From the NCBI GenBank assembly GCA_029204225.1, contig CM055092.1:100310200-100374199 (forward strand): a stretch of 64,000 nucleotides of DNA, given 5' to 3'. Below, in pieces: positions 2,291 through 63,881 of this stretch. How positions within the stretch are numbered: the first letter of the stretch is position 1; each line of letters starts with the position of its first letter. Made by a program: the position numbers and the translations under genes. Source of the DNA: Diphasiastrum complanatum (taxonomy: Eukaryota; Streptophyta; Lycopodiopsida; Lycopodiales; Lycopodiaceae). The notes beneath the pieces were generated by a model, which saw only the letters and a list, made by a program, of their open reading frames with translations, was not told the origin of the DNA and made no database searches.

Positions 2291-2308
2291 AACTGGTGCG
2301 GATTCAAT

Positions 2309-3862
2309 TCATGAAACCTGATCGGCTAAATAATATTGCTTTCCCTTTCTGACCACAATTTGAAAGTCAAATTCAGTCAATAATAGTAACCATCTTGCAA
2401 TACGTCTAGTATTACATGTCTTATTTACCAAGTAAAGTAATGGTTGATGATCCATATAAAATGCAAAGTGCATTTCCATGAGGTAGTGACGAAATTTCCA
2501 AACAGAAAAAATCATGGCTAGTGCTTCATGTTCTGTCATTGAATAATTCTTCTCTGGAAGATGTCTACTTGCAAATCGTATAGGATAATCCTTCTTATAG
2601 TCACATGGCTGCGTCAAAACTGATCCAATGGCATATTTTGAGGCCTCCGTATGAACATGAAACTCTAATGTCCAATCTGGAGAACGCAGTATTGGTGCTG
2701 AAGATAATGCTTTTTTTAACTTTTCAAAGGCTTCTAACGCCTCTACTGTCCATATAGGAACAATAGTTAATTTGTATATAGGTCGTGCTAAATCCGTAAA
2801 GAAGATAATAAAAATTTGATAGTAGTTCGCATGACCCATAAACACATAAACTCCTCGAATTGTTGTTGGCGGTGGCAATTCCACAATAACTTTGATTTTA
2901 GAATAATTGGTGGCAATACAATGTCTTGATATCACATGTCCAAGCACCACTTCGTGAGAAATCCATATCTGGCATTTTTCTGGATTTAGAGAAATCTGAT
3001 ATTTGCGGCATCTTTCAAATACTTTCTCCAATCGATCCAGGTGGTCTGTATCTGTACTATGAACTCCCAAGTCGTCCAAGTAAATTTCAAGGAATTTTTA
3101 CATATAATCTTTAAAGGCAAATTGCATTACTGTTTGGAATGAACTTGGTGCATTACAGAGTCCAAACGACATTACTTTGTAAGCATAGGTGCCCCATTCT
3201 GTTGCAAAAGCAGTTTTGTGGCGATCGGCAGGTGCAATCTTAACCTGGTTGTAACCACTAAATCCATCCAGGAAACTATAAGCTTCCACTCCAGCAAGGC
3301 GATCCAAAATGCTTTCAGTAAAAGGTAATGGAAAGTGATCCTTCCATGTCACTTTATTCAATGCTTTGAGATTCACACATATTCGCAATTTCTCATTTGT
3401 CTTAGTAACAATGACAATCGATGAAATCCATTTGGTATGCTCGATCTCATAAATGAAATTGGCATCAAGCAATATCTGAAGTTCTTTCTTTATCAGATCT
3501 GCCACATTAGGATTACAGCGATAGAACTTTGTAACCTTTGGTACTGCATCAGGTACTAAAGGTATGGTATGTTCAATGACTGATGTCGGAATACCCTTCA
3601 AATCTTGATAACTCCATGCAAAGCAATCTTGATACTTAATAAGTAACAAACGGCGTGCTTGATATTGTTCAAGAGTAAGTTGTGATCCCACTTGTACAAT
3701 CTTTTCCGGTTCTCCTGGTTTTGCAAGATTCATTGGTTGCATCCTAGCTGGGCCATCGTAAACCTCTTTAGATTCTGGCATGTGTTCTTCAGGTTCACGA
3801 TGTGCTTTAGATAACATGATAACCACATCATCTAGTGTATAACGTTTAAAATGCTCTGGCAT
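2309..3862 (-). pseudogene. reverse transcriptase and RNase H of element 1
   Basis: The N-terminal RT part (3098-3862) has the conserved SFLDGFSGYNQ and FGLCNAPSSFQ motifs. After an in-frame TAA at 3098-3100 the frame continues through the YLDDLGVH active-site box, the SLNPEKCQIW thumb segment and GHANYY. It then enters an RNase H-like domain with EFHVHTEASKYAIG, TEHEALAM and MDHQPLLYL. Apart from the single stop the RT-RNase H stretch is nearly complete, so this block is a good query for related copies. Confidence 0.92.
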
Positions 3863-3940
3863 ATCATGCTGGACTACATTTGCTTGTTCTTTTTCGAAAG
3901 GACTTGTCTTGGATCTTCGTTTAGTCTTCTTAGCAGGAAT

Positions 3941-5370
3941 CTATCGTGGAGGTGATGACTTTCGGGATGATAAATCTTTCTTCACCGGTGAAGACTTCCT
4001 AGACGATGATGTCTTGCTGGAGATCTGACTTGAAGAATCATTCTTGACTTTTCTTTTGCCTTTATCCAATAGAGGTGGCACTTCCTTTGAATCAATCTTT
4101 TGAGGGGGATTTTTCCATTTCAGGACCGTATTATAATGTTGCTTTGTTTGTTTATTCGTCATCGAACATGTGATCCTGTCTCCCTTCAATATAATTGCTT
4201 TGATTGTTGGTTCACCAGGAACATTATGCACTCCAAATCTGGTCGGATCCATATGATGTAGAATCTGTTCATCCGTAAGTTCTGCATTGCCATCATAAGT
4301 TAAGGCATGGCTCATTGGTATGAGATCATCCTCAATTGGATCTGGTACAGGTTCCGTTGATATCCTGGCTACATTCAGCACATTTGGTGGAAATGTGATT
4401 GGCGTATCCAAAGTTCGATCTAATAAGGAAATCTCGCTCATCTCTGATTGAATATCTTGTTGACACATATATCCTACTGTACAATCAATTGTTGCAAGAG
4501 CTTCGTGCCAATTGACAATATCCGTTTGAGAATGGTAGTGAACTCCCAATTTTTTCTCTGGTCGATCAAAAGTGTGATCCGTTGTTGATGAATCGTCATC
4601 CGCTTTTTGAACCACTGGCTTGATAGTCCAAGTCGTAGGATCAAAATTGATTTTGCCAGTACCCTAGTTATGAATTACTTGCGCAACTCGTAACCATGGA
4701 CGTCCTAAGAGAACTCGATAGACATTTGGTGCTTCTGGTAAGTCCATCACGACGAAAGTAATGACGAACTGTACTCCTGCAATCCTGACAGGTATATCTT
4801 CCACCATTCCTCGTGGATAAACTGTCGTTTGATCAGCTAGCTTAATAGCAAAAGTAGCAGGCTTAATCTTTGTAAGACCCTACATAGCTTTGTAGAAATC
4901 AGGTTAACTCCTGAACCGCCATCTATCATGGCTGTTTCTTTAAAAAATTGTCTATGTTGTATCGGTAGAGTGATATTTTTTTGTTCACTTTCCCAAGCGG
5001 CTCCAACATGGAGTACATCATTAGATTCTTCAAATCCAGCACAAAAAAACGGCTCCTAATGGTCTTTTGATGCTTCTTGAGCTAACTTTTGTGCTAAGAC
5101 TTCTTTTGCTTTTGGCACCAACTTTAGGAACTCTCCCAATAAAATATTGATCTTGCTAGACAAAATATTCATGAGTAATTCTATATACGGTGCTTCCGGT
5201 TCAGTCATCTTGAAGGGTTCTTCGTGATGATGTAATTGATCATTCATATCCATACGTAAATTTCTTGGAGGCTGCAATGGTGAAGACTGAACTTCAGTTG
5301 TTACTTAAGCAGCTTCAAGTTCCTCTTCTTCTTGCAGATGTTTAATCCATTGTCTCATATCCTGATATCT
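3941..5370 (-). pseudogene. aspartic protease and linker of element 1
   Basis: Two frame segments join across a frameshift near 4905. The first holds the catalytic aspartic protease motif AMIDGGSGVNL at about 4905-4935. The second holds the flap and the C-terminal hallmark VLLGRPWLRVAQV at about 4665-4720. A Ser/Lys-rich linker (3941-4100) leads into RT. Upstream, 5056-5277 is an unremarkable helical linker. The product would have cut the polyprotein; the frameshift makes that unlikely here. Confidence 0.75.
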
Positions 5371-6936
5371 TCATTTTTCTGCATTAAGATTTGGATAGAC
5401 TCCTGATGATGTTGTTGTATCGTTCAATGGTATAGAATCAGCGAGTACTGAATCCACTACTGGTTCTTTTTGCTTTTGTGCTCTGGTGACCACCATCAAG
5501 GGTGCACTTGGTTTATTCTGAGCTACTGATCCTTGCTTGATTGTTATCAAATTTACAGGTGCTGTAGCTGGTGGTGGCTTCGGTCTTGCTAGACAGTCTT
5601 TATAGCAATGCCCATATCCACAGTCATGACAGAATGGTACAAATTTTCCTTTATTTGGACATTCTGCAACTCTGTGATTTTCTCCACATGCAAAGCATCT
5701 AAGTGGTGCTCTGGCCCAATTTCTCAAGGCTTGTTGTTGAGCGGCAGCATAGATGGCATACTGTTCTGAAGATCCACCTTCCTGATCATTACCATAGCTC
5801 CATTGCTCAGCACTTCCGTAAGGTTCTGGTTCCATCAAATTGGCAAGAGGAGCGGAGTGTTTTGGTGGGGCAGGCAAAGCTAGACGTTTCAGATATCCAA
5901 GAGTATATTGTTGCAGTCTTGCTGCTGGATTGCCTCCATACTGTGGATCTCGATATCCCATCTGGGCATACCATTGCTGAATTATCCGAGGGTTGAAGTT
6001 GCAAAAGGCAGTCTCATGGTCAGGTGAATTACACAGATGGCAGACATTGATTTCCATTCATTTTTTCAATTGAGGACACTCATTCACTATGTGATTTCCT
6101 ATACAAATAGAACACCAGACATTTTTCCTGGTAGGAAAAGTCTTTGCAAACTTCTCAGGTTCCTTGTTCGCTTCTCCGTGGAAATTTTCCAATGCTTTGA
6201 TCTTCTCATCAAATTGCAACTGCAACTTTTCCATCTGTTTTCGCTGGATCTTCCCAAGTTTCTCAAACTCATTGAGCATCATTTCTGCAGTAGCATTGGC
6301 ATTCGTTGATGCAATAGTGGTGGATGTCGTAGTAGTCTGCCCTGCTGTATAAGACAACATACTGACATTTGGCTCATCAGCTGAATCTTCATCCTCCTCC
6401 CGAGTTGCATCGTCCATCACATTTTGCAAAAGTGCATACTTATTATGGCATTTTAGCTCACGTTTGATCCGTTTAGGTAGACCTGACAAAAACCACATAA
6501 TCATGGAATTTTCATTAATCAGCTCAGGCTCACATTCAGATCTAAGACGTTTCACCCTTTCGATGTAATCTCGAACCATTTCCCGCTTTTCCATTTTAAT
6601 TTTACTTAAAAGTAGGAAAGGGTCTTCCATAAACTTCCGCAGTTTGAACCGTGTGATAAGGGCTCGTTTAACAACCTCTCAATCTGTACGCTTGGTTTCA
6701 TCTTGGTTATAGTACCAATCTTGTGCTGCACCTGTTAAGGCCATAGGAAACAGCTTAAGTTTATCTTGAGGATAAATCTCACCATAGACCTCACAGGATT
6801 CAGCATAGATCTGAAGAAATCTAACTGGATCTGTTAATCCATTATATTTGGGTAGATCCAATCGGGGTGCTCTTCTAACAATAATTGGATTGACCTCCTG
6901 TGGAGCGACTCCAAGAGCAGCTCCAGGGGCAGCCAT
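5371..6936 (-). pseudogene. gag of element 1, with zinc knuckles
   Basis: The N-terminus (6679-6936, ATG at 6936) has the retrotransposon gag signature around PKYNGLTDPVRFLQIY and ALTGAAQDWYY. The middle part (6058-6630) is helical with FLSGLPKRIKREL. The C-terminal part (5371-6057) holds three CCHC-type knuckles: CHLCNSPDHETAFC, CFACGENHRVAEC and CHDCGYGHCYKDC; a fourth CCHC-like set lies near 6065-6115. This would be the nucleic-acid-binding capsid protein. Small breaks near 6640 and 6058 separate the pieces. Confidence 0.85.
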
Positions 6937-10302: not shown

Positions 10303-13082
10303 GTGGAATCTAGCAGCGACACCATAAAAGATATACAAGTTCCTTCTGTGCTTCCTGTGTTCTACAACGCATGGTTATTTGAAAGTAAGATAGAGGCCTC
10401 AGCTGGCCTTGCTCTCAAAATCATGGAGGAGTTAGAAGAGTGCCTGACCACTTCCCAGTGGTTAAGAACGTGCTGTGAATATGCTTGGAAAAAGAATCCT
10501 GATACTATATTCTTGAACCTCATGCTTCCAGTAATTTTAACTGTGGTGCTAGGAGGGTGGATCGCATGGCTCGCCTGGAAGCTACTATCACTAGCCAATA
10601 ACTCTACCATTACCAGTGCGTTCCAATATGGATTAGTGCCTGTGACTGTGTTTGTTATGACATGGACCGTGTTGAGAACTGTGTTTAATGTCATACATCC
10701 TGTGACCCAACAACTTCTGCAGTCCACTGCATACTCTACGAGCCATCAAGAAAAGTTGGGCTACCAGCTACAAGTTATAGAAGACATTCGATTCTTTAAA
10801 GATCAGATAAGCAAGAAATCAACAAAACTATGGATTGTTCTTGGATGGTTGTGGTGTATGCTTGTCAAAAACAGAGACAATATAGCTGGAACCAGCATTC
10901 CAAAGCTGCCACCTAGCGATAAGCTACGAATTGTCGTCTTCATAGATGATCTTGACAGATGCAAAGCAGAGCATTATGTATTTCAAGTGAGTATCCTCCA
11001 TACCCTCGCCTCTGAAATTTATTTTTTTTCATGGTGCTCCTCGCTTTCCGTTTTTTGCTCTCCGGGTGCACGCTGCAATCACTAATTTCGCCAATGATGG
11101 TCCAGATGGTGAGTGCCATAAATGTAATATTGTCCGTGTGCGATATAAATGTTGTGCTGGGCGTGGACGTAAAAATGTTACAGCAGGCGATCACAAGTCA
11201 GCTTAGAGAGGGCTCAGAAGGAAAGCTCATTGGGCAATCAGAAACTTCCGAGTTTGCAGAAAAGTTCTTGCAGAAGATCATCCAAGTGCCCATATATTTG
11301 TCAGAACCAGGTACGAAGGAAATGATGTCTTTCCTGAATGCACAACTTGGTGTTTCAAAGGATATGAGTAACGAGGACAGCAAGAATGATGATAGCATCT
11401 CCCGTACTGCTTCTGAAAATGAAGTCAGCCAGCTCGAACGTAGCCGCAGAACAGAAGGCACAATTAGCGAGCTTGCTATCGAAATGGGTAAGTCCTAGCA
11501 GGAGAGTTTTTGCACTTTAAATTCTTGTCGCACTGCAAATAGAAGATATCATTCGTACTCTCCCGGAAGCATGGACAAATAAGGAGATCACCACTTTTTT
11601 CAGCCTAGGAGTAAGATGGGAGATTCTTCCATTGACATGCAGGTGCCATGATACCAGATTTTAAATGGTTCACTACTTTTTCTCTTGCAGATCAACCTGG
11701 AACAAGTACCGTAGATTCGCGAATTGGAAAAGGTCTGATAAATGCTCAGTGCCAAGCAGATTAACTTTTTCCACAAAAGAACTTAAAATTCATGCGAAAG
11801 TGTGTAGTGACTAGTGACCGTATATGCTTGAGCACAGGTGGTGGCCAACTGTCGAGGAGAGCTACGGCAGCTTCGGAGCTTGGTGTTAATGAGGATCCTC
11901 TGTTGGTTGGCGAGGGATCTGAGGAGCTTGCTATCGACGATCTTGTATTGATCGCTACCTATACTGAGAGCGAGAAGAGAGCTCTGATTCATCTGCTTGA
12001 ACAAGCAATTGATGATCGCAAGCAGCCTCGACAATGGAAGCGCTTCCTTAACTATCATCGGCTTGCGTGGAACATCCTTTCCCAAGAAGAGGAAGTCAAA
12101 TCCCTGCATGGATGGCAAGTGCAACTTATAGTGTGGGTGTTTGTGTGCTGGCAGTGGAAGGACGAGATGGACCTGATTATTAAGGTATGTATGTCACATA
12201 GCAGCAACCACTAACTATCATAAGTAGCACGACATATCTCGTAATTCTGTTTTGGTTACATCAATTTCCTGTGTTGCTCTACTCTACTCTACTCTTGCCA
12301 AAAACAACTTAAACAGCAAGATCAGATCCTATACCATCCTATCCCAAAGCAGCAGCAGCTAAACAAGCCATGTTTTTTTAACAGCAAGTCTTAGATCAGA
12401 TCCTATACCATCCTATCCCAAAGCAGCAGCAGCTAAACAGCTATGTTTGACTGAATGTGTATCCTTTGCTGTTGCATTGCAGAAATGGAGGGAACTAGTT
12501 CGTGAATATAGCTCAGTGTTTGAACAGAGAAGGAAACAAGGACGTGCTTTAATAATCGACGAGATCACAATGGAATTAGAAGAAGAAGAAGATCCAGAGA
12601 ACATCCATATCCCAAACACTAAGCTCAAAGGCTTGACTAGTAGCAGTTGTGATGTCAAGGCCAAGCAGACCCAGAGGCTGCGCCTCAAGGATGGCAATAA
12701 TATAGGAGGAGGAGGCACACCCTCTTTGAGCCAAATTGTGATAAGACTAGATCTGATTGTGAAACCAGCCGAGTTAGAGAGCTCAAAGGAGAGGAAATCA
12801 AAAAGAAAAAGGCGGATGGAAAAGATGTTGGAGACCCTCAAGGGAGAATATGATGTGAAAATGAAGTCAATCTTGGCCTTCCAACACTTTCGCTTCCACT
12901 GTGCAGTAGACTACCTTGGATATGACATGGTAGAGGGAGGTTTGGATGGGGATAACATTGCTCTAGATATAATGGAGCGAAAGATTAGCAATCCTAGGTA
13001 TGTAGATTCTAGTAATACTCCCACAAAGCTCTTGATGGAATATGCACAACTTAGGAATCAATCAAATCACTTAATATACTAA
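10303..13082 (+). CDS. KAP-family P-loop NTPase, 5' part missing
   Basis: Exons proposed from splice sites: 10303-10986, 11106-11487, 11543-11642, 11691-11732, about 11833-12184, 12483-13082 (stop). The first exon follows CAG and has no ATG, so upstream exons, including Walker A, are missing or out of view. It carries the KAP signature VFYNAWLFE, two membrane helices (residues about 70-93 and 108-130 of the exon) and Walker B VVFIDDLDRC (about 211-220). Exon 2 continues with NVVLGVDVKMLQQAI and FLQKIIQVPIYL, typical of the domain's C-terminal half. Exon 5 has RQWKRFLNYHRLAW. The last exon is acidic then very basic, with a predicted helical tail. KAP NTPases are membrane-associated ATPases; the helices inserted before Walker B are a family hallmark. 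The phase at exon 4/5 is uncertain and gene versus fragment is unresolved. Confidence 0.72.
12317..12442. repeat. tandem duplication in KAP intron
   Basis: A segment of roughly 55 bp beginning AGATCAGATCCTATACC and ending AGCAGCAGCTAAACA occurs twice, about 75 bp apart, just before the last exon. The copies are almost identical, so the duplication is recent. Confidence 0.85.
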
Positions 13083-18951: not shown

Positions 18952-19862
18952 TCACAATCTTTCAGTGTATAGGACTTGGTTCATGTTGAATTGGCTCATC
19001 CTAAACACGGCATAAGTAATGTCGGGGCGCATGTTATCCGCTAGATACATCAATGATCCAATTAGCCTCTTGTAAGGCATGTGTTGCATGGCCTCCTTCT
19101 CTTCGTCGATTTTTGGACCATCTTCGTTTGTCAGAATCGTTCCTGCAAGCATTGGGGTGTTGGTCCCTCTGCAATGTGTCATCCTGAAATCATCTAGGAT
19201 CTTTTGGATGTACCTAGACTGATGAAGGTATAGCTCTCCTTCATCATAGTTGTGGTCAATTTGCAAGCCTTGATAGCATCTAGCTTGTCCTAGGTCTGTT
19301 ATCTCGAAATGTTTCGAGATGTTCCTCTTCACTCGCGCAATCAGCTCTTCGCTTCTGTATAGAATCAATGTGTCATCCATGTAGACAGCAATGATTATGA
19401 TCTTTCCGTTTGTGATCTTTACATATACATTGTAATCAACCATCAGTGGTTGGAAACCCAAGGATCGTAGAGCATGATCCTTCTTCTGGTACCACTGTCG
19501 CGTGGATTGCTTCAAATCGTAGATCTTGTGTATTCGGCAGGCGTAGATGGCAAGTGACGTGCAAATGTAACCAGGAGGTTGGTCAATGTAGACTTTTTTG
19601 TCTAATTTGCCAGGTCAACAAGCGTTAGGCTATCTTCAATGGAGGAGGATAAGACGGCTACTGCCTTGTCGTTCCTTTCTCTCCACTCTCGTAGCTCTCT
19701 GTCGGTGGTTGTAGGCATCTCTTCGATGCCGTCCACCCAGGGCCATAAGCTTTCTTCCTTCAAAATGAGAGAGGTCTTTACCTTCCATGCTAGGAAGTTA
19801 GACCTGGATGAGTCGAGGATGGTGCAGATCTTCGACTGTATGCTGCTTATAGATGCCATCAT
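18952..19862 (-). pseudogene. Ty1/copia relic: gag joined directly to RT
   Basis: Reading leftward, 19862-19602 encodes the N-terminus of copia gag (FLAWKVKTSLIL, ESLWPWVDGIEE; UBN2-like). From about 19602 it passes straight into the reverse transcriptase (YIDQPPGY, DLKQSTRQWYQK, the catalytic VYMDDTLIL box, KHFEITDLGQA, RLIGSLMYLA). The nucleocapsid, protease, integrase and first part of RT have been deleted. RNase H is cut off at 18952. The RT piece itself is open for 187 codons. Confidence 0.88.
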
Positions 19863-21615: not shown

Positions 21616-21891
21616 TGTTAGAAATCAATGATAAACTTCATTGTTACAATTCTTAGTTACTGTTTACGATGTACTTTATTACTAGTTGTAACTAGCCGTT
21701 GGCTACTCTAGTAGTCTACTCCTAGGTTCTCCCTCTCTATCAAGGTTCAGGGTTTATATGTACATTTTACATTCAGTATGTTGTAGTGTGATAGATTGAT
21801 AGTGTGTGTTCTTCTTTCGGCTTCTTTGGTGATTGCTTATGGTGAATGCTTGATGTTGCATATCTGATTGTTGACATGGTATCAGAGTAGC
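21616..21891 (+). mobile_element. copia-type LTR (21616-21876) with primer site
   Basis: The 261-bp segment begins TGTTAGAAATC and ends TTGACA. It is followed directly by TGGTATCAGAGTAGC (21877-21891), a tRNA-iMet primer site. That is the structure of a 5' LTR of a plus-strand copia element. Its own gag does not follow: from 21911 the sequence is antisense copia RT, so only the LTR and primer site survive. Confidence 0.8.
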
Positions 21892-37600: not shown

Positions 37601-40600
37601 TCTGGGCTCTGGGACTCATCCTGTGCACCAGCCTCTAAATCATCCTGTGCACCAACCTTTGAATCATCCTGTGCACCAACCCCTGAATCAACCCGAGCCT
37701 CATCCCGTGCCTCATCATGTGCACCCTGTAGACCCTGCATGGCCTCCCAATCTGTGCAATCAAAGTCATCTGGTGCCTCCTATGGTGTGCTGTCGTAGTA
37801 ACGGCCATGACTTTGTATTGCACGCATCCAAACATATGCTGGACCGGCATCTAAATCACTCTGCCCTCTATGAAGAGCCTCCTCCATCATGTCGGCATAG
37901 GTAGGTATGCCACTGGCCCCCCCTGTGTGCCTTGCCTGTCTCCCGGTATAACCTGTGGCATGTGTCCCACCTCTGCCACGTGATGCACCTGTGACCCCTG
38001 CCCGTGGCGTGTGCTCTGCACCTGTATCATCCGCCTCATCCCTCTCTGATCTGGCTAACACAACCTGAATGGGCTCATCCTCATCATGCTCATTCTCTGA
38101 CACTGGCTCATTTGCCTCATACAATGGGGGCTCTCTGTGCTCAAGCCCAAGCTCTCTCTCTCTCTCATCTCGGCAAGCTCCCTCTCTCTCTCTGCCATCA
38201 ACTGTGTGCCCAGGTCATCTGCAGGCATGGGATGGGTACTGTTCGTAGGCAAGTCAACCTGGCGCTCCAAATCAGATATCTTCGTCTGCAAGGTTTAAAA
38301 TTTGCATGTCAGAGAGACAACTTTATGAAGAAATGAAACCAACGTACTAGGAGTCAACCAACATGCTATGGGAGAATAGCTAATCACCTGCAATGCGCTC
38401 GTAATGGTCGGAAGTCTCCTGGCGAGACGTGCGTTGGTGCTATAGAACACCAACCGCTCCAACTGACTCACTGACAACCGGTTTCTTCTCCTCGTGTGAA
38501 TCAGTGCCCATGTGCTCCAATTACGCTCACACACGGAGGTAGCACAGTCCTGTGGTACGTGCAATGAAATGCTTCAGCACATGTGCACGGGTGTAAGGTC
38601 AACGAAACACAGCAATGGAGGATGAAATGAGATGCATACCTGAGAAAGGACACGCAGTGCAAGACGCTATACGGATGGATAGGTGCTACCGAACATGGTC
38701 CACCATGTAATGGGAAGCTGCCTCCTCTCTGGATCCTGAGCAGCCGGGTGGCCGAACGTGCCCATGCCCAAACGAAATGCAGCGAGCTCCTCCATGAGCC
38801 TGATAGGATCCAAACCTATTTGTGGACCCACCCTGTGAATGTACTGAAGCCAATCGGCCTCGAGCTCCCTGTCTGCGATTTGTGTCGGAGAGAGGAAGAG
38901 GGGATGCAGCATGTGTGCAACGTTGTGGATACTCCTGTGGAAGTAGTTCCACCGCGTCTCCCATATGAACTTCAGCTCTGTCATCCTGCAGGTGAGAGGC
39001 ATGTGGTTTAGGGCATTATGAAAATAACTTAACACTGACAGAAAAACAAACTAGCAATTACTAAAAAGATAAAGGCCAATTACATTACTATACTGCTTAC
39101 CTCTCTGGCTGCAAGATGGGCAGCTGCAGGAACTGTCCAATCCGGTCCATGAGCTCATATACAAGTCCAAGTGTCGACCCCTCGCTGTCAGCCATGCGGA
39201 GCACAATGTAGAGTGGTCGAAGCAGTCCTGACAATGTCTGTGCATCCCTCCAGAACTGGTCTCCCCTCACCGTGGAAGAAAAGTGCTCCCCATCCTCAGT
39301 GTGCGGAAATGTACTGGCACCCCAAAGATCACTGGCAACCATCTGTAGAAGTTGGGCCCTGCACCTGATCAAACGGTCGATGACCACCAAGTCGAATGCA
39401 AAGCGCGTGGGGGCTGGCTTACGGAGGTCCAGATGGCTGAACACCCGGAACATGGCAAGAACACGCCTCTTTCTGGTGACAAAAGTCACCAGGAAGAGGG
39501 CCTCCCGGATGATGGCTCTAACCCAGGGAAGTGCACCTATGTCCCCCATGAGAAGGTCTATGCCGTGCGCCGCACAGGGGGTATGGATGATGTGAGGGAA
39601 CTCGGCCTCTAGTAGGACACCCATCTAAACACAGTTGGTGGCATTGTTCGTCACCACCGTAACGACATGTTGGGGGCCTATGGACAGTATGGAAGACCTA
39701 ATGACACCGTACATGAAATCTGTAGATATGACTCTCCCCTCCCCTACTGCAATCCACGGCTCTCAAAAACTGTGTACCCATGCAGCTGGAGACCAAGATG
39801 TTGAGGATCGGCCGCCTCCTGACATCAGTCCAGCCATTGGACATGATGCTACATCCATATGTGGCCCAGTGGCGGCGTAGAGGCTCCATCTCTCTAGACA
39901 AGGACTCAACCCTATCTCTCAGCATGTGTGTGCGGACAACCTCCGAACCAGGGACTCTCCAACCAGGGCTGACAGACTGTGCAAGGCGGAATGCCCTTTT
40001 GAAGGGCTCAAAATCGGTGATGGCAAAAGGTAGGTTCAGCTCGTAAATCAAACTGGCCACGGCCTGTGTGGCCTCTCTGTCCATGTGCGGCTGATGCGCC
40101 CCACGAATGGTCTACTGCACAAGGGCTCTACCTGGTGGGCGACGGGTGGTGGACCTCCAACACGGTGCACCAACCGTGACAGGAATGGACGATGACGCGA
40201 CAGGTTGGGCACTGGTGGATGCATCGGCTGTAGATGTGGAATGGGGAGAGTGGGATGCACTGGCAGGGATGGGTGCAGCAGCATAGGTGGGGTGCACTGG
40301 TGGAGGGGCAACATCTGACATGGGGTACGAAAACTGTTGGCCGAGGAGGTCATCCGGATGGGAAGGGAAGGAAGAAGGGATCTCTTCCACATCCTCGAAG
40401 GCCTCAACAATAGCATCCTAGGCCTGCTCGGGTGGCGGAGAGTCCATGAGAAAGTCGTAAACCGGGGGCGTGCGAGCAACAGGACGTGGAGGTGGAACCA
40501 CAGTGGCAACTGGCGGACGCGAAATATGGATGGACAGACTAGGATTCGAACCCAGGACCTCCCTCATACTGGATGGCCGCCCTGTTTGATAGTTATCTCT

Positions 40601-43600
40601 AGAGTGTGGATTGATATTCCAACACCCCCCCTCAAGCCACACTTGGTTGGGGTCCTAGCTGTCACCTGCCCCACAACTTGGGCCACCTAAAAGGATTCGA
40701 ACCCAGGACCTCCCTCATATCGGATGGGATGCTCTACCACTAAGCTATCCGCCCTGTTTGATAGTTCTCTCTAGAGTGTGGATTGATATTCCAACATTTC
40801 TAAGATTATTGCCCGTGCATCATGATCGTGTCTGAGTTGGGCATGAAGTAGATCATAGGTCCTCAACAAGATGAGTTTACTACATAAAACTAAAACCTTC
40901 AAATCATCAATTATAAACTGAATGAAGGTCACCCTACTTATAGCGTTATGGACAATAATGAAAACTTGCAAGTAGCTACTAAATATGGTTAGGGTATATA
41001 TTAGCACGGCAAGGGGTCCCAAGAGGATATGTGCCTCTACTACTTGAGGCCAGTGTAGCATTCAAATGTTTGCAATGTGTGAAACTCAAACGTTCGAAAC
41101 GTGTTTGAAACGTTGTTGAGCTTTGTTAAGTGTTTTTTTGGAGTTTTGACGTATCCAAGTGTGAATTCAAGGGTTGAAAGGTTAGCTGAATGGACCCAAT
41201 TATTGTTTGTGAAAATTTAAGATGAAGACCTTGCTAATTGCCAACAAGTTGTGGGATGTTGTCACATGTTTCAAATTGAAGCTTGAAGACGACACAACCA
41301 ACTCTGAATGGAAATTGAAAGATGGTAAAGCTTTTGTGCTCATCATTCTCAATATTTCTGACACTCAAATTGGCCATATATCTGAAGCTCAAACTTCAAA
41401 AGAAGTATGGGACATCCTGAGTGCACATGCTATGAGGGACGTGACTTCCAATTGCATCTCAGAAGGAAATTCTTCTCACTCAAGATGTCAAATAATGATT
41501 CGCTTCATAATCACATTAACCAATTTAAGAATCTCTTGCAGCAAATGGCAGCTGTCCCATCAACTATCGACGATCAAGACGCAATTAGGACATTGCTATC
41601 GAGCTTGCCTTCTACATATAAAAACTGGGTGATGATCATGACGACACACTCAGATTTAACTCTCACCAGAATTATCACTATATCCAATTAGAGTAGCTTT
41701 TTAGGTCGTAGGTCGCAATTGGTGCTTAGCCACAATGTGCTGTCACTTATCTTAATAGGGAAATCAGTTATCTTCATAACGAACCGAAACTTGATCTAGT
41801 TAGCCTTCGACAATCCTTTGATAGTCGAGTGTGTCGAAGCCTCCTGTTGTTCGATTCCCTTGTATTTCTGCAAACTGTGTAAAAGAATGCTGCAAAGCTG
41901 GATAAATGAATGGATGTAGGTTAACTCTAGGATTATAGGAGAATAATCCAACAAAAGGCATATAAGACTAAAATGTACATGTCAAATATGTGGTATCAGC
42001 GAGAGCATATAAAATGTCTCCAAAAATAGTAAAAAGTACTCGTAGATATACTTAATGAGTAATCCAAACAGAACAATGCTGAATAAGATATGAACTATAG
42101 AAACATGTACTGATATAAATAATGATTTGTTGATATAATGTCATCATCATGTTCTGCTGGGAATGAAGAAGGATGTAATCTGTGCTGCGATAGGGAGTAG
42201 AGTCGGAGTGTGCTGTTGGCATTTTCTAGAAGGCTGGTTCCGAGATGTGTCTATCCTCATGGTACGTTAGAAAGCTCTGACCTCAACGTGATTCTCCTAG
42301 CCTTATATTACATAAAAAACAAGTGCTTTTTTAGTGTTTAAATTGCAATGTACATTATAATCAATGAACGATTAATCTTGAATCCAATGGTGATTTTGAA
42401 ACGACGATTGATTATAATGTAAATAACTCTTATTCTAGTTCAAAATGTATGTTTCTATGCTTGGTTAGGGTTGCCTTTTGAAGTTCATGTTGAGAATATT
42501 CCAAGCTTCCAACGAAGTTCGAACGCTTCAAATATGACTGATTTGATTATCTAGGGATGTTGAGAGTGATAAGGGCGAAGGCCTTCCCATTCTTCTGCTT
42601 CCATTTGATAATGGCCGCTCGATCTGCAATAGGCTTAACCTCAGTACTTTCAACAACTTTCCAAAGCTAAGCTTGAGTGGCACACTTACATTTAGGCAGT
42701 AACAGTCCCGTTTCGAAACGTTTTTTTTTTTCCTTTTCGTTTTGAAAAAAAAAATCCGATTCGAACGGTCCATTCGAATCGGACCATTTTAAAATGGCGA
42801 TTCTTTGAACGAATCGCGATTCGAAGAAACTATGAAGCTGAAGTTGTGGAACTGGGTGACTCCATTGATCCGCGTCTGGCATAGGTCCTGTCGTAATAAG
42901 AACATCTTTCGTACCTTAAGTGCCACACAACTTGGGTCCTCATATGTGATGAGTGAGTGAAATGTAATAGAAATGTCTCGAAATAAGCAATGTTATCTCC
43001 CTTTGATCTCATAGTAAATTGGGCATTGGAAGATGGTGTTCCTTGGACTCTACCTCATCCAAGGAACAAAATTGGCAAACCCTCCTCTTTTGGAATACCT
43101 TGGAACCGTCCCTTTCAATCCCAATTTGCTGTGAAGTAGTACGTAGTTGACCAAGTATGAACCTGAGACCATGAGATAATTCAGAAGCCAGATAATGTGG
43201 CAAAATTGGGAACCTTGTTGTATCCAACTCTAAAAATGAGTCCGATAATAGTCGGGTTTGGCCCTACCAAACTCGATCAAAATGTGCTCTATATATAAAA
43301 CGTTTGATAAACTGGTGAGTAACTAAAGGGAGGTATGTGATAGAAATGCCAAATCTTTGAAAGAGGTGAGATTCTTGGGAGAACTATGACAACCGATAAC
43401 CATGATCATGGAGATGTTGAGAAGAGGTGAGAGTTGCCTATGTGTATCTTTACTCAGAAGCTGGAAACAACTGGACTCGCTGGATATATGTGGCAAGCAA
43501 GAAGATGGCTCCAAGTTGTAGAGGTGGAACTGCAAATTCAACAAGAATAATCTGACGTGGGACAGAGGCCTTAGCTCGTATCATACGTGATAACAAATAG

Positions 43601-46600: not shown

Positions 46601-49600
46601 TAGGTGATGAAATTCTGTCTCGGTACTCTTGTTTTTAAAAAGGAGCATGTGCACTCCTCCCCACATGACTTCGGAATGTTCCATTCTCCTGTTTTTTAAT
46701 GTAAACGTGAATTGGCCTGCTTTTTCTTCATAGAGATGTTGGCAACAATTTGGTGTCGAGTAGTATCTACTACTATAGGGTTGAAACATTATTTATAGTA
46801 CTCTGTTTTCTTCAACAAAGGAGGCTTTTGTAACACATCATTGAAATTAGTGTGTACAAAAGGTTTCAACTCAATATTAGCCAATTCTTTATTCTGGATT
46901 TAGAAGGCAAACCACCTTGTAATGTCCAGCCACCATCTTAGCCTTTGAGGGTGCATGCAACAATGCATAGCCACTTTACATAATTTATCATTTTCCACGT
47001 CTTCTACTCTTTCGATGTAGTTGATTGTTTTAATAATCGCCAAAGCTTTCAATGGAAGGACAATTGTTTCAGCCGACAAGATAGGATAGGGGGGCGGTTT
47101 GCTTCATTCCGGTGCAGCCCCTGTTCCGGAACGCTCGTTCCGGAATGGGAGCATTCCGAACAGCAAAACGCTGTCCAGAACGCAGTATTTAAAAAAAGAT
47201 TATAGACATATTCTGCATTATATAAACAGTATATTAATTACAAAGTTCCAGGTGCCGTGGTACGGCACCTGGTACGGCAGGGCTGCCGTGGGTGCCGTAC
47301 AGGTGCCATGGAACTTCAGTTCCACGGTACCCACAGCACCTGTTTTTTTTTTTTTTTGAATTTTTTTGAAGTCATTTTTTAAGTGAAAAACCAAAAAAAA
47401 AACAGGTGCCCTCTCTCAAGCCACACTTGGTTGGGGTCCTAGCTGTCACCTGCCCTACAACTTGGGCCACCTAACCATGGCTTTGACACCATGAACTGTT
47501 AGGTCTAACTTGGCTCTGATACCATGTTAGAAATCCATAAATCATAAAATGGATGGACAGACTAGGATTCGAACCCAGGACCTCCCTCATACCGGATGGA
47601 GCTATCCGCCTTGTTTGATGGTTCTTTCTAGAGTGTGGATTGATATTCCAACAAAAACTTTGCCTATTCTCCTAATAATGGTAAACGGACCACAATACCT
47701 AGGAGACAATTAAGCTTACACTCCTGTTTTGAGGGTTTTAGAGTCATCTGAGACTCGAAGAAAAACTTTCTCACCAGGGAAGAACTGAACATCCCGTTTG
47801 TGCGGATCTGCATACTACTTAGCTCGATCCTGGGCTTGCCTAATGCTACGCTTAGCATGTTCTACCATCTGGTTTAGGTCTTCTAAAAAGTTTTTTGTTG
47901 CTTCAACTTTTTCCTGTTTAAACCGTACTGCTATGAGCGTGGCTGAAAACCATACTCAGCATGAATGGGTTGTATTCTGTAGCTGAATGTTTGGTATTGT
48001 TATAAGCAAACTCAAGTATTGGAAGATATTCCTCCCAATTAGTCTGCTTTTTATTGACCTATGCACGAAGCATATCCTCCAGCACCTAATTTACTCTTTT
48101 TGTTTGACCGTTCTGGTCTGTAGTACCCATGTTTAGTTTAGTATGGAGATGATGGAATACTGGCCTCCAAAAATTTCCATTAAACTTACTGTCCTAGTCG
48201 TTGACTATGCCGGAAGGGAGACCGTATAATTTAAATAGCCCATCTATAAACAACCTTGCCAACTCTTGAGCTCTAACGGTTGTTTTGGTCGGAATAAAGT
48301 GAGCCATTTTGGTTAAACGGTCAACTGTGACCCATATAGCATTATGACCCTTCTGGGCCTTAGGCAGGCCTACTATAAAATCTATGGAAATACTTTCCAT
48401 TTACCAGCTAATATTTCTAGGGGCTGTAACAACCCTCCTGCCTTTGGACGCTCTGCTTTATTAATCTGACACTTCTGGCAATTGGTTACATATTGTTGGA
48501 CGTCCTATTGGGCCAGAAGAATTGCCTACGAAGAGTAGATTCAAAGGGCAAGATACCAGTGTTAGGAACAACGTAACAACGTCGAAGGCGAAGCTAGTCT
48601 GATCCACCCAGCCAATGCACTCTTAGAATACCCCTCCTAAGTTTGCATGGGAGTGGTAGGTGATGGTTACTGCCAACACCCACTGTTCATGCTGCATGCA
48701 CTAGATTACTGTTGCATGTGAGGTCCCAGTCCATCACTGATGGCATGACCCTTGACTTTCATGCATGCGTCCGCATGTGTCTGCATGTGTCTGCATGGGC
48801 ATTACCAGCCCTCATACCTACTGTACGGTATGCTTGCATGCCATTGACTCACACTGTCCTCTGACCTCTGGTGGTTAGCTGTTCCCAGATGTTGGTTCGG
48901 TACTGTTATGGTCTTGTAACACTTAGATGAATGCATAAGAGACGTTCTTGTACTCTTTCGATTTCAGCCCACTTGGTGCGATCAATGCTGCCCCCCCATA
49001 CTCGATTTCAGCCTACTTGGTGCGTGCAATGTTGCCCCCCAATACTTCGCATTCATATAATAAAATTGGAGCCACCAATGTATCAGATAACATTTCCCTT
49101 TTTTCCCATCTCCAAAGTTTTAGTTTTTTGCAAGCATTCTCCATTCTATGAAATGATTTTCAGCCACCTATAACTCTTTTGTCCACACAAGAGCGCCATT
49201 TCAAGTTATGTGATTGTCTTATCCTTAACTGTGACTATGACAATCAGTATGAGGAGCCACAATGATGGTGAATTAGATATGAATGAACATCACGATTCCT
49301 ATGGAGACCATTTTGAACGTTATGAAAGCCATTCTGATGAACATGTGTATTAGTCGCATCAACCTAACACAAGTGGTGGTTTTTATAGTATTGACGTACT
49401 AAAGGACTCGGAACGCGAGCGTCCTCAAGTTTGGCTGTCTAGCACCATAGCTCTCCCACCATGATACAGGCAAGAGCCTGTTCTCTCGGACACGTGCAAG
49501 GTCCTTGCCGAACAGCCCCAAACAATGCCTGCAGTTGAGCAGCGATGTGTGTGAGTACGCTTGAGCCCACGCAGGAAAATTGAGCGAACGACAGCGTACG

Positions 49601-51974
49601 ACAGAGCAAGAGTTTACCTCTAATTGAGCCTCTGCTTCTTGAGCCAGCAGCGGATACCAGTGTCGCTGCTGAGGAGGCGGATGTATGAGAACCAGTCCGC
49701 ACGCAGCTCTACATCGTCATACTGCCTCTCGCTCTGAAACAACGGATGCAGTATGTGGGCCACACTGTGAATGGGCCGGTGAAACTTATCCAATCGTCGC
49801 CGCCACAACCGCTTGATAGGCTCCAACCTGTGGACCATACCATGTGGAGGCAACAATTACATACCATCGTGTTGCGGCAACAAGACGAAACAGCCCATGG
49901 TCTACTCACCCACAATGCCCATGTGCCTCTGTACTTGCCCCCATGTGATGCTACCCCCCTATGTTGGTCTCCCATTGGCCCCTCGGTCTGCTCACCCGCA
50001 GTGCCCATGTGCCACTGCAACAGTCCCCTGCATCATGTACTGTACCCTCTTTTTTTACACCTTGAACCCCTTTTTTTACTTTTTTTTCGTTCTTTTTTGG
50101 TAGTTAATATGCAAAAAAAAATTACTAAAATATATTAAAAAATAAAAAAAATATTATAAATGGTACCGCCCTGGTACCACGGATCCCAGGGCGGTACCGT
50201 ACGAAATGGAAGAAAGGATGGTGAGACGGAAAAAAGTTATACCTGGTAGGGTCCAGCTCAGAACGCTGGAGAGACTCGCCTATGCGGTCCATGAACTCGT
50301 AAATGAGGCCCATCGTGCACCCCTTGTGATCAACGAGCCTCAAAGCAGAGTAGATGGGGCGCATCACGTCCATCAGCTGCTGCATATCCACCCAGAAAGG
50401 CTCCATGAAGAGGATATCGTGGAAGGCCAAGCCCTCTGGGGTCATGGACAGGTCCATGGCGGTGAATTCTGCAGAAGTAGCCATGCGCCGCAAATCACCC
50501 TTGAGCTTGTGTAGCCGCTCAAGCATGATGAACTGGAAGGCGAAGCGGGTGCGAGCGGGCTTCTTTAAGTCGAGCCTGCATTGACAAACGGAATGAGAGG
50601 CACACATGATACGAGCCAAAAAAAAAGAAGCATCTTGAACGAGCCAAAAAATAAGTAGCATCTTGAACGAGCCAAAAAATAAGTAAAAGCTTACCTGCTG
50701 AATGTGCGGAAAAGGGCAGTGGTGCGGCGCTTGTGTGTGACGAAGTCCACAACCGCAAGTGCCCTCGTGAGAATCTCACTGAACCAAGGCAGGCACCCGA
50801 TGGAATGCAAGAGGAGGTCCAGTGAGTGTGCGGCACATGGAGTCCACACAATGGAGGGCCCTATACTCTGCCATAAGAAGCTCTCCCATACCGCGGCAGT
50901 TGGATGCATTGTCCGTCACAACCTTTCGCGATACATTCACACGATCAGTTCACAGCTTGGAAACACATTGTAATCAATCGAAAACTACGCAAAACTTTTG
51001 TATCAACATTAAGCAGTAAATGACCAAGCAACTAACGTGCTGTGGCTTGACCTCCTCTATCGTTGCTCGGATGATGCCGCAAATGTACTCGGCCGAATGC
51101 ACTCTCCCTGCCTCGGAGGCATCGATGCTGCGTAGGAACATGGAACCGTAACAACTAGAAACAATCACGTTGATGAGTGGACGTTTACGACGATCAGTCC
51201 ACCCATCAGCCATGATGGAACAGCCGAATCTATCCCAAGCCTCCTGCAGTGCGGCTAGTCTCTCTCTGATGGATGCAACCCGCTCCTGGAGCAAAGGGCC
51301 GCGTAGTGCGTCGGCTGTGGGTGGTGTATAGCCGGGCCCGCAGACTGCAACTTTCGAGATAGTCTCTCGAAAGATGCGGGATGATGCCATGATAAAGGGG
51401 AGGTTCAGGTCATAGAACATCTGTGCTATGGTCCTGGTGGCCTCTCTGTGCTGCCCCTCTCTGAAAGATCCCGGCATGGACATCTGTCTGGTGCCTCGGG
51501 ATGTGGATGGCTGGGAGGACGTGGATGGACGATGCGGATCTGGAGGTGGTGGCATAGGTGTAGGTACTGGCGGAGGGGGTACGGGTGGCTGTGGCGGTGG
51601 TGGAGGCGGTGGCGGTGGCGGTGGCGGTGGTGGGTGCGGATGCGACGGTGGGGGTGGGGGCGGTGGCACTAGGTGTACCAGTGGAAGGGGCAGTGGTAGT
51701 GGATGCACCAATGGAAACAGAGTCCGCGACATCTGTGGACGGCTTGCCGGGCTCAGCACCTGGCTCAGAATATGCCTCGAGAATGCGAGCCCTCTCCGCA
51801 GAGGGGATGACTGTGCAAACGCCGATCCCGTAGCGTCCCGCTGTGGATCGAACTCGCAATCTCCCCAAATGTGCTCGAACCCGAGAGGCGTTCCATGTGA
51901 ACTGCTTTCGACAAAAAGGGCAACGCCACTTTTTGTCGAGCATCAACTTCACCTCATCCCAAATGGGACGAGCA

Positions 51975-52021
<47 letters not shown>

Positions 52022-52294
52022 CACAAGCACGCAAATCTAATATCTCTCTCTCTCTCTTCTCCTAAACCCCAAACCCAGGCACGTAGACCCTAAACCCTAA
52101 ACTCACACGCACACACACACCATGCCTCGTACACGCGTGCACACACACACAAATCCTCTCTCTCTCTGTCTCTCACACTCTCTGTCTCTTCCTCTCTCTC
52201 TCTCTCACACAAATCACCACACACACACATCTGTGCATACACAAATCAACTAACCCACACACACACACACACACACACCATAACCCTCACTCAC

Positions 52295-60026: not shown

Positions 60027-61500
60027 TTGTTGATCACCTTCTGTGTGCGTCCGTTGCAACATCACTTTCTGTCGTTGAATTCATGTCCTATTACTGATAA
60101 CACCTTGGCGAGACAACTGATTATAGGCGACATGAGTAAGGAAGGTGCCCTTGTTCCACGAATTGAAAGACAAATTGAAAATGCCTACAAATTCTATGGT
60201 GATACTTTTGAGAATGAAAAATTATGCCTATTTCCTATGATATTACTTGGGGACGCTAAGGAATAATATCTTAATCTTGAAGAATCTGATATAGTCCCTT
60301 ACGGCAGCCCTTACCAAACGATTCAAACCTTACAAATTGACTCAAAGCCCTTTCATTCAACTATCTCACATCAAGATGAGGAGCGACAAATCTGTACGCA
60401 CCTACATTGGACTCTTTAAGCATCTCAAGGTGGAATGCGTTGATGAGAAAATCACAAAAAAAATGGCTATCAAACTCTTTTTGGTAAGCTTACCTAAATC
60501 TATCAGAAGAGAACTTAAATCAGTCGACTCATATGACCAGTTGAAAAAAGTAATGGATGACACCATTAGAGAAGAAGATGAAGGATCCGATGATGACTAT
60601 GATCATCGTGATCGCAAGGGGAAAGCTCCTATTAAAAATGATCCACCCTCTAAGCACACCTCTAGTCCTAATTCCATTGATTTGCTACAACATATGAATA
60701 TCTGGCAAAAAAAACTCAACAAGCCCAAATGGATAAGCTTACAACTAATTTTCAAAAAGTGCTTAAAGATATGGCTGACAAGACTACCCTTCCGGGAGAA
60801 TGTGTAGTGCTCTATCTATTCTGAAAACCATACTACCAACGAATGCCCACATGTGAAAACATGTTTCCTACCAAATGCAACAATACCGACCCCCTGGTCC
60901 ACCCACCTTACAATCCTCAACAGACTTATCAGTGACTAGGACAATTTTCATCCAAGACCCCCAGGCCCGCAACAGTTTCAGCCTAGACAGCCTTATGTAG
61001 TGAATCAACCTCAGCCACAAGCACCTGCTCACTACGTTGATCCCGACCATGTTGATTCAACTACATATTACGTTGAAGAAACCCAAGATGATAGTTATCA
61101 AGTGGACCCAACATACCAATATGATGCTACTACTGTCACTTATGATCCAAACCAACCATACTATGCAGCTCCACAAGTAAGTTATGCGGCACAACCCATG
61201 TCTGCCTTGAGGGGTTGTTTTGTTTGTGCTGGGAGACATCCTAGCATTAGTTGTCCTGATAAGCTCAAATTCCCACCCCTATGTAGTAACTGCGAAATCG
61301 AGCATGTGCAATAGATGATGGATCTTCCACTACCGAATCCATGTTGGAACCATATCATGAAACTCAAGAAATGGAACACTACATGCAGCCTATTGATATC
61401 ATCAACTAGAGTCATATTTTAGCAACGATTGATTATGTCAATGCATAATATTGTGCCATAAATACTGGAAGCTCAGATAACGAAGAAGGGCCAGGTGAAC
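60027..61500 (+). pseudogene. gag of gypsy element 2
   Basis: Segments: ENAYKFYGDTFENEKLCLFPMILLGDAKE (in two parts around residue 55 of the first frame, closed by a stop at 60264), then FIQLSHIKMRSDKSVRTYI and FLVSLPKSIRREL (60337-60807), a Tyr/Gln-rich region and a zinc knuckle CFVCAGRHPSISC with CSNCEIEHVQ (61000-61314). It is homologous to the gag of element 1 (compare FLSGLPKRIKREL). Stops at 60264, 60805 and 61312 break it. Confidence 0.8.
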
Positions 61501-63881
61501 CATGAATCACTTTGGATACTCCCATCTTTAATGTCCAACTCATTGAAATTCTCCCACACAATGATCAATTGTTGAATCGTTGTCTGGCTACCAACTAATG
61601 AATCAGTCTCGTTGTATGTAGATGAAGAAAGTGTGTTGAAATCCCATCCACCCCATGACCTAGAAGAAATTTCTGACATGGCTATTTTAGAATACATGGG
61701 AGCACTTTCACAACGTCTTATCCCAGAATCTTCTAGGCCATTATCGCTGTTAGCAACAGTAAGCAGGTTCAACACTAAGCCGATTAAGACTTACCGTGTC
61801 AAAAAACCTACCTTCGAGTGGGATATCCATGATACTGAGTCACTTTTTGCTTTAGATGAGTCTCTTCTACATGAAATACCTGATCCCAAACCCCATCTGC
61901 GTAAAGACCAACCATCATTTTCTATTGACACTTTGAAGAGAAAAATGGCTATGAAAGAGAAAATGAACCGTTCCATCGTAATGGAACCACCCAAGGATTG
62001 GACACAGAGGTGCGTGACGATGCACCTTCAGGGCAAGCATCTCCACCATCAACTACCAAACCTTCCACTTCCAAGTCCACAAGGAAAATCAAGCCTAAGG
62101 TGCCTTATGCACCCGAAGGCCTCGACATGCCACAATACTTCAAGGACTATATAATTGAGGACGTTACTATCCAGCTTCCCCAAGCCCAACGTGAACCACA
62201 GGGGGATCCCCCTTTTGATGGACCAGCCCAAACGGTCATGTTAAATTTGCAAGATTCAGAGGAGGATGAGGACAAAATTGTCCATATAGGTGTCCACCTT
62301 AATCGAGAGCAGCGTAGAGCACCAGAGAAACTCCTTCAAAGGTATTGCCATATTTTTGCATGGTCATACAAGGATATGAAAGGTGTGAGTCCTACGGTAG
62401 CCGTACATCCCATACCTTTACAACCTGATGCTACCCCAGTAGCTAGTCGTCCCTATAGATGTAATCCCATCTACCGAGCCAAGATCAAGGAAGAGTTACA
62501 ACGCTTATTGGAGGCCGGGTTCATCTATGAGGTCAAACATACAGAATGGGTGTCGCCGATCGTAAATTTACCTAAGAAAAATGGAAAGCTTCAAATTTGT
62601 GTAGATTTTAAAAAGCTTAATGCGGTCACTAAATATGACCATTTCCCTATTCCATTCGGAGAAGCCATATTAGAAAATCTAGCTGGAGATGAGGCTTATT
62701 CCTTTTTAGACGGCTTTAGCGGTTATAATATGATAGAAATAGCACTTGAAAATCAACACAAAACTGCTTTTGCCATGGAATGGAGGACGTTTTGTTGGAA
62801 GGTGGTGCCCTTTGGATTGTGTAACGCTCCTAGTACTTTCCAACGCGTCATGCAAGCAACCTTCATAGACCTGATAGGAGACACGCTAGAAGTCTACTTA
62901 GATGACCTAGGAGTTCACTCTGAAGCATCTAGACATTTAGCTGTACTTGAAAAAATATACATTGTGCCAAAGGTTTGGTATATCTCTAAATCCCGAGAAA
63001 TGCCAGATCTGGGTTACCCATGGGGTTGTTCTAGGACACATCATATCCCGGAATGGAATTGTCACTGATCCTGAAAAGGTTCGAGTAATTGTAGAGATGC
63101 CAATCTCTAAGACCGTGCGTGAGGTCGTGATTTTTATGGGCCATGCCAATTACTATCATTGTTGCATACGTGACTTTGTAGGTAAGGCATGCTGGATGTA
63201 CCGATTAACCATAGATCCAAAATAGGTACAAGAGCATGGCCATGTGTTTCAAGATCTCAAAACTGCTCTAGCCAGTGCCCCCATTTTACGAGCACCCGAT
63301 TATTCTAAGGAATTCCATGTGCACACGGAGGCTTCCAAGTATGCCATCGGCACTGTCTTGACGCAACTTGGTGAGGATTCCAAGGATTATCCTATCTGAT
63401 TCTTAAATAGACAACTAATCCCGGCCAAGATGAATTATACCACTACTGAAAGAGAAGCATTTGCTATGGTGTACGCGGTTCAAAATTTCACCATTATCTT
63501 TTGAAAAAACCCTTTGCGTTTTACACTGATCATCAGACGTTATTATATCTTTTGAACAAGACATGCACAACTAGACATATAGCACGATGGTTGTTATTAC
63601 TTTGAGAATTTGAGTTTCAAGTTGTTGTTAGAAGGGGTTTGCAACATTTTTTAGCTGATCATCTTTCACGAATCTCTAGCAATGACAAACTGACGAAAGG
63701 TGTTAATGATAACCTTCCTGATGCTATCTTGGTTCAAGTAGATTACACCCTAGTTTGGGCCCACGACATCAATGAATACCTTACTACTGGCCAAATAGAT
63801 CCAAATCTACCTAAACCAGCTCAAGGACAACTACATAAAATAGGGATAGATGGAATTCAAGACGAAGTATCCTATCGATGA
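61501..63881 (+). pseudogene. pol of gypsy element 2: RT and RNase H
   Basis: 61612-62154 is the linker before RT; 61998-63068 overlaps it in another frame and holds RT: HIFAWSYKDMKGV, RPYRCNPIYRAKIKEEL, YSFLDGFSGYNM, FGLCNAPSTFQRVMQ and the active site VYLDDLGVHS. A frameshift near 62950 moves to SLNPEKCQIWVTHGVV and GHANYY (62947-63225). RNase H follows with EFHVHTEASKYAIG and TEREAFAMVYAVQNF, then a broken stretch and FLADHLSRIS (63639-63881). Integrase lies beyond the window. Same lineage as element 1. Confidence 0.88.

Follow-up and report, generated by a model that had tools for sequence, protein, structure and literature searches.

A miniature plant retrotransposon family with a tRNA-derived segment in its long terminal repeat: two decayed copies, very probably of the Helenus kind

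Can a miniature retrotransposon carry, as a regular component of its long terminal repeat (LTR), a segment derived from a tRNA, together with the boxes that RNA polymerase III (pol III) recognises? This question is raised by a minus-strand locus, 40796 to about 40531, of the stretch of contig CM055092.1 analysed here (64 kb in length, hereafter the window). We find in the window two incomplete elements, copy A and copy C, which are very probably decayed copies of a single family of terminal-repeat retrotransposons in miniature (TRIMs, that is, miniature, gene-free LTR retrotransposons) with a tRNA-derived segment in the LTR, which would make the family a Helenus-type element of plants. Copies A and C combined display TG...CA ends, a primer-binding site (PBS) of tRNA-Met type and a polypurine tract (PPT), so that the proposal of a miniature LTR retrotransposon made in the first-pass annotation is borne out. 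Likewise, the tRNA-like segment belongs to the LTR, as had been suggested, because parts of it are found at one common position in each of the three LTRs, which come from two separate elements, and the box B sequence GGTTCGAATCC is exact in each of the three and is found nowhere else in the 64 kb. The components of the two copies are as follows.

40692..40796, minus strand: copy A 5' LTR, cut off after box B; 105 nt; 82% identical to the copy C LTR across 105 columns, a gap of 15 nt among them (gaps counted)
40737..40747, minus strand: box A TAGCTTAGTGG, the sole full copy among the three LTRs of the window
40693..40703, minus strand: box B GGTTCGAATCC of the copy A 5' LTR
40625..40691, minus strand: what is left of the copy A interior, 67 nt; end of the 5' LTR and PBS gone; 66 nt match copy C 47474-47409 at 95%
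40625..40633, minus strand: PPT GAGGGGGGG, abutting the start of the second LTR of copy A
40531..40624, minus strand: copy A 3' LTR, without box A and cut short by about 24 nt at its end; 89% identical to the copy C LTR over 108 columns (gaps counted)
40542..40552, minus strand: box B GGTTCGAATCC of the copy A 3' LTR
47525..47653, minus strand: copy C LTR, TGTTGGAATATC...GGATTTCTAACA, 129 nt; ends in CA; lacks 15 nt from box A and the D arm
47565..47575, minus strand: box B GGTTCGAATCC of copy C
47513..47524, minus strand: PBS TGGTATCAGAGC, tRNA-Met type, abutting the end of the copy C LTR with no gap
47409..47524, minus strand: copy C interior, 116 nt including the PBS; 3' LTR absent

Copy A runs on the minus strand from 40796 to about 40531 and has two LTR pieces, 5' and 3', on either side of a short non-coding interior, with the LTR start TGTTGGAATATC found exactly at 40796 and at 40624. 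The two identical LTR starts, the PPT ahead of the second one and the absence of coding sequence from what remains of the interior, which had all been described for this copy, are confirmed, and its direct repeats amount to 48 nt at 98% and 36 nt at 94%. The LTR start alone is less telling, since allowing up to two mismatches gives 15 sites in the window where 9.1 are expected; three of the 15 are exact, and all three lie in these LTRs. The 5' LTR ends right after box B, where it is joined to interior sequence and where a TTTT is present at the junction, and as a consequence of this break the 3' acceptor strand, the end of the LTR and the PBS have gone; no PBS was found in copy A.

Copy C is a second, incomplete copy on the same strand, extending from 47653 to about 47409. 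Its PBS is the one exact match of the 12-mer TGGTATCAGAGC in the window, where four sites are found when up to one mismatch is allowed, against 0.20 expected. The same sequence is also given as the PBS of Cassandra in the available part of the published description (PMC7215508). The LTR of copy C holds a TTTT run at its positions 105-108, downstream of the tRNA-like part. The interior of this copy breaks off where an inverted repeat ends (91% complementary, with arms at 47336-47357 and 47388-47409), and near the break lies a GC-rich stretch that has another inverted repeat (47245-47275); the 3' LTR was perhaps removed by the insertion of another element near 47336-47409. Both copies look dead, the PBS having been lost from copy A and the second LTR from copy C, and one LTR (copy A 3') has no box A and another (copy C) a cut one; these statements on decay are based on three LTRs from two elements.

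The alignment of the three LTRs spans 144 columns, and the tRNA-like part, which lies in the sense direction, occupies columns 43-114, following 42 columns of sequence common to the LTRs. Within it the order is that of a tRNA: GGGCGGA, TAGCTTAGTGGTAGAGC, a stretch resembling an anticodon arm, CTGGGTTCGAATCCTAG and TCTGTCC. The B-box pattern GGTTCGANTCC is found three times in the 64 kb against 0.07 expected, each time inside these LTR copies, and the combination of TAGCTTAGTGG and box B at a distance of 30-60 nt is met once in the window and in none of 100 shuffles. The one occurrence is in the copy A 5' LTR, which contains GGGCGGA, TAGCTTAGTGG and GGTTCGAATCC, with box starts 44 nt apart, a spacing like that of a tRNA and one displayed by this LTR only (one of three). 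The earlier assignment of these three parts to copy A is thus correct for its 5' LTR, and that of TCTGTCC is not, as this motif is found in the 3' LTR of the copy, from which the 21 nt holding box A are missing. In the copy C LTR a remnant, TAGCT...CGG, fits a loose form of box A, but the distance between the box starts is then 29 nt and not 44. The 3' acceptor strand is present in the copy A 3' LTR and in copy C (two of the three), not in the LTR with the full box A. The gaps at box A, of 21 nt (40576-40577) and 15 nt (47599-47600), share their right-hand boundary before CCATCC in two different elements, and to judge from the sequences this common boundary could have arisen by deletions that recurred at one place or by descent within a shared subfamily.

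In respect to structure, the best Rfam match at both places is the tRNA model, albeit below its 29-bit threshold, with 18.5 bits for the copy A 5' LTR, 16.4 for the copy A 3' LTR, a match whose register extends back into the PPT, and 19.6 for copy C. A cloverleaf drawn by eye on the three LTRs themselves has 97.4% of its 38 cells paired; shifting the partners by 1-3 columns leaves 34-62%. Its anticodon arm, of 4 pairs with an 11-nt loop, is unlike that of a working tRNA, which has 5 pairs and a 7-nt loop. The T arm appears in the predicted fold of two of the three LTR pieces (copy C and copy A 3' LTR), and the acceptor arm was tested in copy C only, since the folded piece of the 3' LTR stopped before the acceptor strand. 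Pairing alone is weaker evidence than the boxes, because in a scan of the window for the fixed geometry, on both strands, one position had 18 of 20 pairs and six had 17.

A number of observations weigh against the family being a tRNA-derived TRIM, or against parts of that view. The claim that one LTR folds into acceptor, D and T arms does not stand: the cloverleaf was put together from different LTRs and none of the three has all of it, because the 5' LTR stops after box B and the other two have gaps at box A. Searches for a tRNA returned none with ARAGORN and no Rfam match at gathering level, and on these grounds a functional tRNA gene is set aside as the main explanation. The sliding control leans in the cloverleaf's favour, since the structure was drawn from the same LTRs, and the shuffle control of the drawn structure is uninformative, as every one of 500 shuffles attains the value observed. 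No pair of that structure shows a compensatory change among the three LTRs, and the LTR pieces fold no better than their shuffles, of which 165, 143 and 103 of 200 equal or surpass the piece itself. Copy A, which is incomplete at its 3' end, showed no target-site duplication of 4-6 nt, and at copy C, with its 3' LTR absent, there are only matches of 4-5 nt in a T-rich stretch. Elsewhere in the window similarity to the LTR or the interior is limited to matches of 13-22 nt, with no further copies and no autonomous partner. Finally, the PBS does not single out a Copia helper, because most plant chromoviruses are also primed by tRNA-Met, as stated in the available part of PMC6317226. A general caution follows for elements of this type: when a cloverleaf is pieced together from two LTRs with different damage, the promoter seems more intact than it is.

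How an intact ancestor might have worked can be outlined from these parts. The 5' LTR would have given rise to an RNA, with pol III attracted by boxes A and B; tRNA-Met would have annealed to TGGTATCAGAGC and primed the first strand, the PPT would have primed the second, and reverse transcriptase and integrase may have been supplied in trans by a Copia-type element. The helper of this ancestor was a tRNA-Met-primed element, probably Copia; Copia is the likelier source on account of the PBS type and of the precedent of fungal Helenus, and those Copia lineages of plants in which a complete tRNA serves as primer are, in the available part of the source, all primed by tRNA-Met (PMC6317226). Transcription of the element by pol III is plausible from its sequence, the basis for such a promoter being the full boxes A and B at tRNA spacing in the copy A 5' LTR (one of three). 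The weak point of the pol III view is that a transcript spanning the element would have to pass the TTTT run in the 5' LTR and yet stop there in the 3' LTR.

A version of the TRIM explanation, whose probability is included in that of the latter and which has an appreciable though lesser chance of being correct, has the element driven by RNA polymerase II as an ordinary TRIM, with a tRNA-derived SINE (short interspersed nuclear element) or tRNA fragment that its LTR acquired at some time now carried passively, and boxes A and B idle in transcription. This would account for the loss of box A from one of three LTRs and its truncation in another, in LTRs that are otherwise well preserved, for the lack of a fold signal over shuffles and of a tRNA call by ARAGORN or Rfam, and for the TTTT downstream of the tRNA-like part of the copy C LTR, which could end pol III transcription early. 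However, box B is exact in all three LTRs and one of them retains both boxes with starts 44 nt apart, and the losses may postdate insertion, having occurred in dead copies. Somewhat more doubtful, when taken as a whole, is a fuller history for a tRNA-carrying TRIM family of a fern or gymnosperm, outside Selaginella: the family would have arisen when the LTR of an element primed by tRNA-Met independently took up a tRNA or SINE, its RNA would have been made by pol III, and its copies, once inserted, would have repeatedly lost box A at one boundary; this last process, if true, would show how such promoters get switched off.

A head-to-tail tRNA-derived SINE, with no LTR element involved, is very improbable. 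It would be consistent with a short, repeated sequence whose tRNA-like part has A and B boxes, and a T run does follow copy C on its strand, near the 3' break, but a SINE does not explain the TG...CA ends, a PBS abutting the LTR and a PPT abutting the second LTR, which rule it out as the leading explanation, nor the 42 shared columns upstream of the tRNA-like part and the lack of an A-rich or simple tail on copy A. Least probable of all is an ordinary LTR resembling a tRNA by chance, for while the scores fall under tRNA thresholds and pairing by itself is not rare in the scan, the threefold exact box B, the A and B spacing never seen in shuffles and the drawn structure far above its slid versions dismiss it as the principal account.

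Other features of the window are of several kinds. Copia remains are present as an RVT_2 match at 18955-19512 (minus strand) and a Retrotran_gag_2 match at 41222-41500 (plus strand). Another LTR-like stretch, TGTTAGAAATCA...TTGACA, lies at 21616-21888 on the plus strand and is followed by the PBS TGGTATCAGAGT (one mismatch); a short match to the present family, at 21866-21887, spans the end of that stretch and its PBS, the two being otherwise dissimilar by eye. Remains of gypsy-type elements are found on both strands at 1313-6630 and 60337-63068, with domain matches to integrase, reverse transcriptase and RNase H in the open reading frames (ORFs) tested at 1313-3859 and to reverse transcriptase at 61998-63065. 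Among the 120 of 370 hits listed for the gypsy reverse transcriptase, none points decisively to a host. A minus-strand ORF at 39100-39621 has a DUF659 match below cut-off, and two minus-strand ORFs tested at 50128-52027, alike by eye, have no Pfam match; the ORFs of both regions are possibly remains of hAT-like transposases. At 10303-13082 there is a gene in pieces, with apparent introns, matching the KAP P-loop NTPase: one piece has a single match among 337 candidates, a Taxus protein at 43%, and the top matches of a longer joined query, best of 7997 scored candidates, are from Cryptomeria (best 36%) and Adiantum (30%). This affinity to conifer and fern proteins suggests as host a vascular plant without flowers, probably a gymnosperm or a fern, though Selaginella would also be compatible, the candidates having been limited by length and by words in common.

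Comparison with known systems places the element within a published kind. Against viral contigs and prokaryote genome contigs the exact 27-nt LTR-start pattern has no match in either set, a negative that is uninformative because the element is from a plant, and these sets may lack the window's own genome. With tRNA-derived SINEs (SINE2) it shares pol III boxes A and B of tRNA origin; here, unlike in those, the boxes are within an LTR accompanied by a PBS and a PPT, and copy A bears no SINE tail. The likeness to Cassandra is closer, extending, as far as the available parts of the descriptions go, to a plant TRIM with the PBS TGGTATCAGAGC, a PPT and an LTR promoter derived from a small RNA (PMC7215508, PMC10853983). 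Cassandra itself, whose LTR carries a 5S rRNA promoter, is nevertheless set aside as the main explanation: the boxes here are tRNA-like, and no 5S rRNA match was obtained with Rfam, at or below gathering level. The first-pass annotation had regarded a tRNA-derived counterpart of Cassandra as a parallel invention; the idea is right and the novelty is not, because Helenus was already described as just that in 2024.

In the available part of that account, Helenus elements are TRIMs with a tRNA-derived LTR, from fungi, animals and one plant, Selaginella (Kojima 2024, PMC10886601); they measure 311-1263 bp, have a PBS and a PPT, show 5-bp duplications in plants and fungi, and their use of pol III is without experimental proof (PMC10886601). 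Our literature search returned, in the parts of the sources available, no account of such plant elements beyond Kojima 2024. If the host of the present family is not Selaginella, the plant range of Helenus-type TRIMs grows beyond one published species, and the LTR described here may serve as a query for searching other plant genomes, such as those of ferns and gymnosperms. The 5-bp duplication aside, the likeness to Helenus is extensive: the element is short and gene-free, with two LTRs, a PBS and a PPT, in the same size range; the tRNA-derived segment of the LTR has a box A of the form TRGCY...YGG and a GGTTC box B; and many Helenus families also lack a callable functional tRNA, all as judged from the available text (PMC10886601). 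In the window itself, boxes A and B are in the LTR (full in one of three, with box B in all three), the PBS is beside the 5' LTR (copy C, 47524-47513) and the PPT beside the 3' LTR (copy A, 40633-40625), and copy A has the anatomy of LTR piece, 67-nt interior and LTR piece in less than 1000 bp and with no protein-coding part. Two copies of the family lie within the 64 kb. Some differences are apparent. The sole plant family listed, from Selaginella moellendorffii, has an LTR of 120 bp and an interior of 85 bp (PMC10886601), whereas the copy C LTR measures 129 nt with a 15-nt deletion and its interior at least 116 nt, a comparison with Helenus-1_SMo made by description only. Most fungal Helenus elements use anticodon-loop primers, in the part of the account available (PMC10886601), in contrast to the 12-nt tRNA-Met PBS observed here, which is as in Cassandra. 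The element is thus a further example of the kind described in 2024 as Helenus, and not a new invention or a new class.

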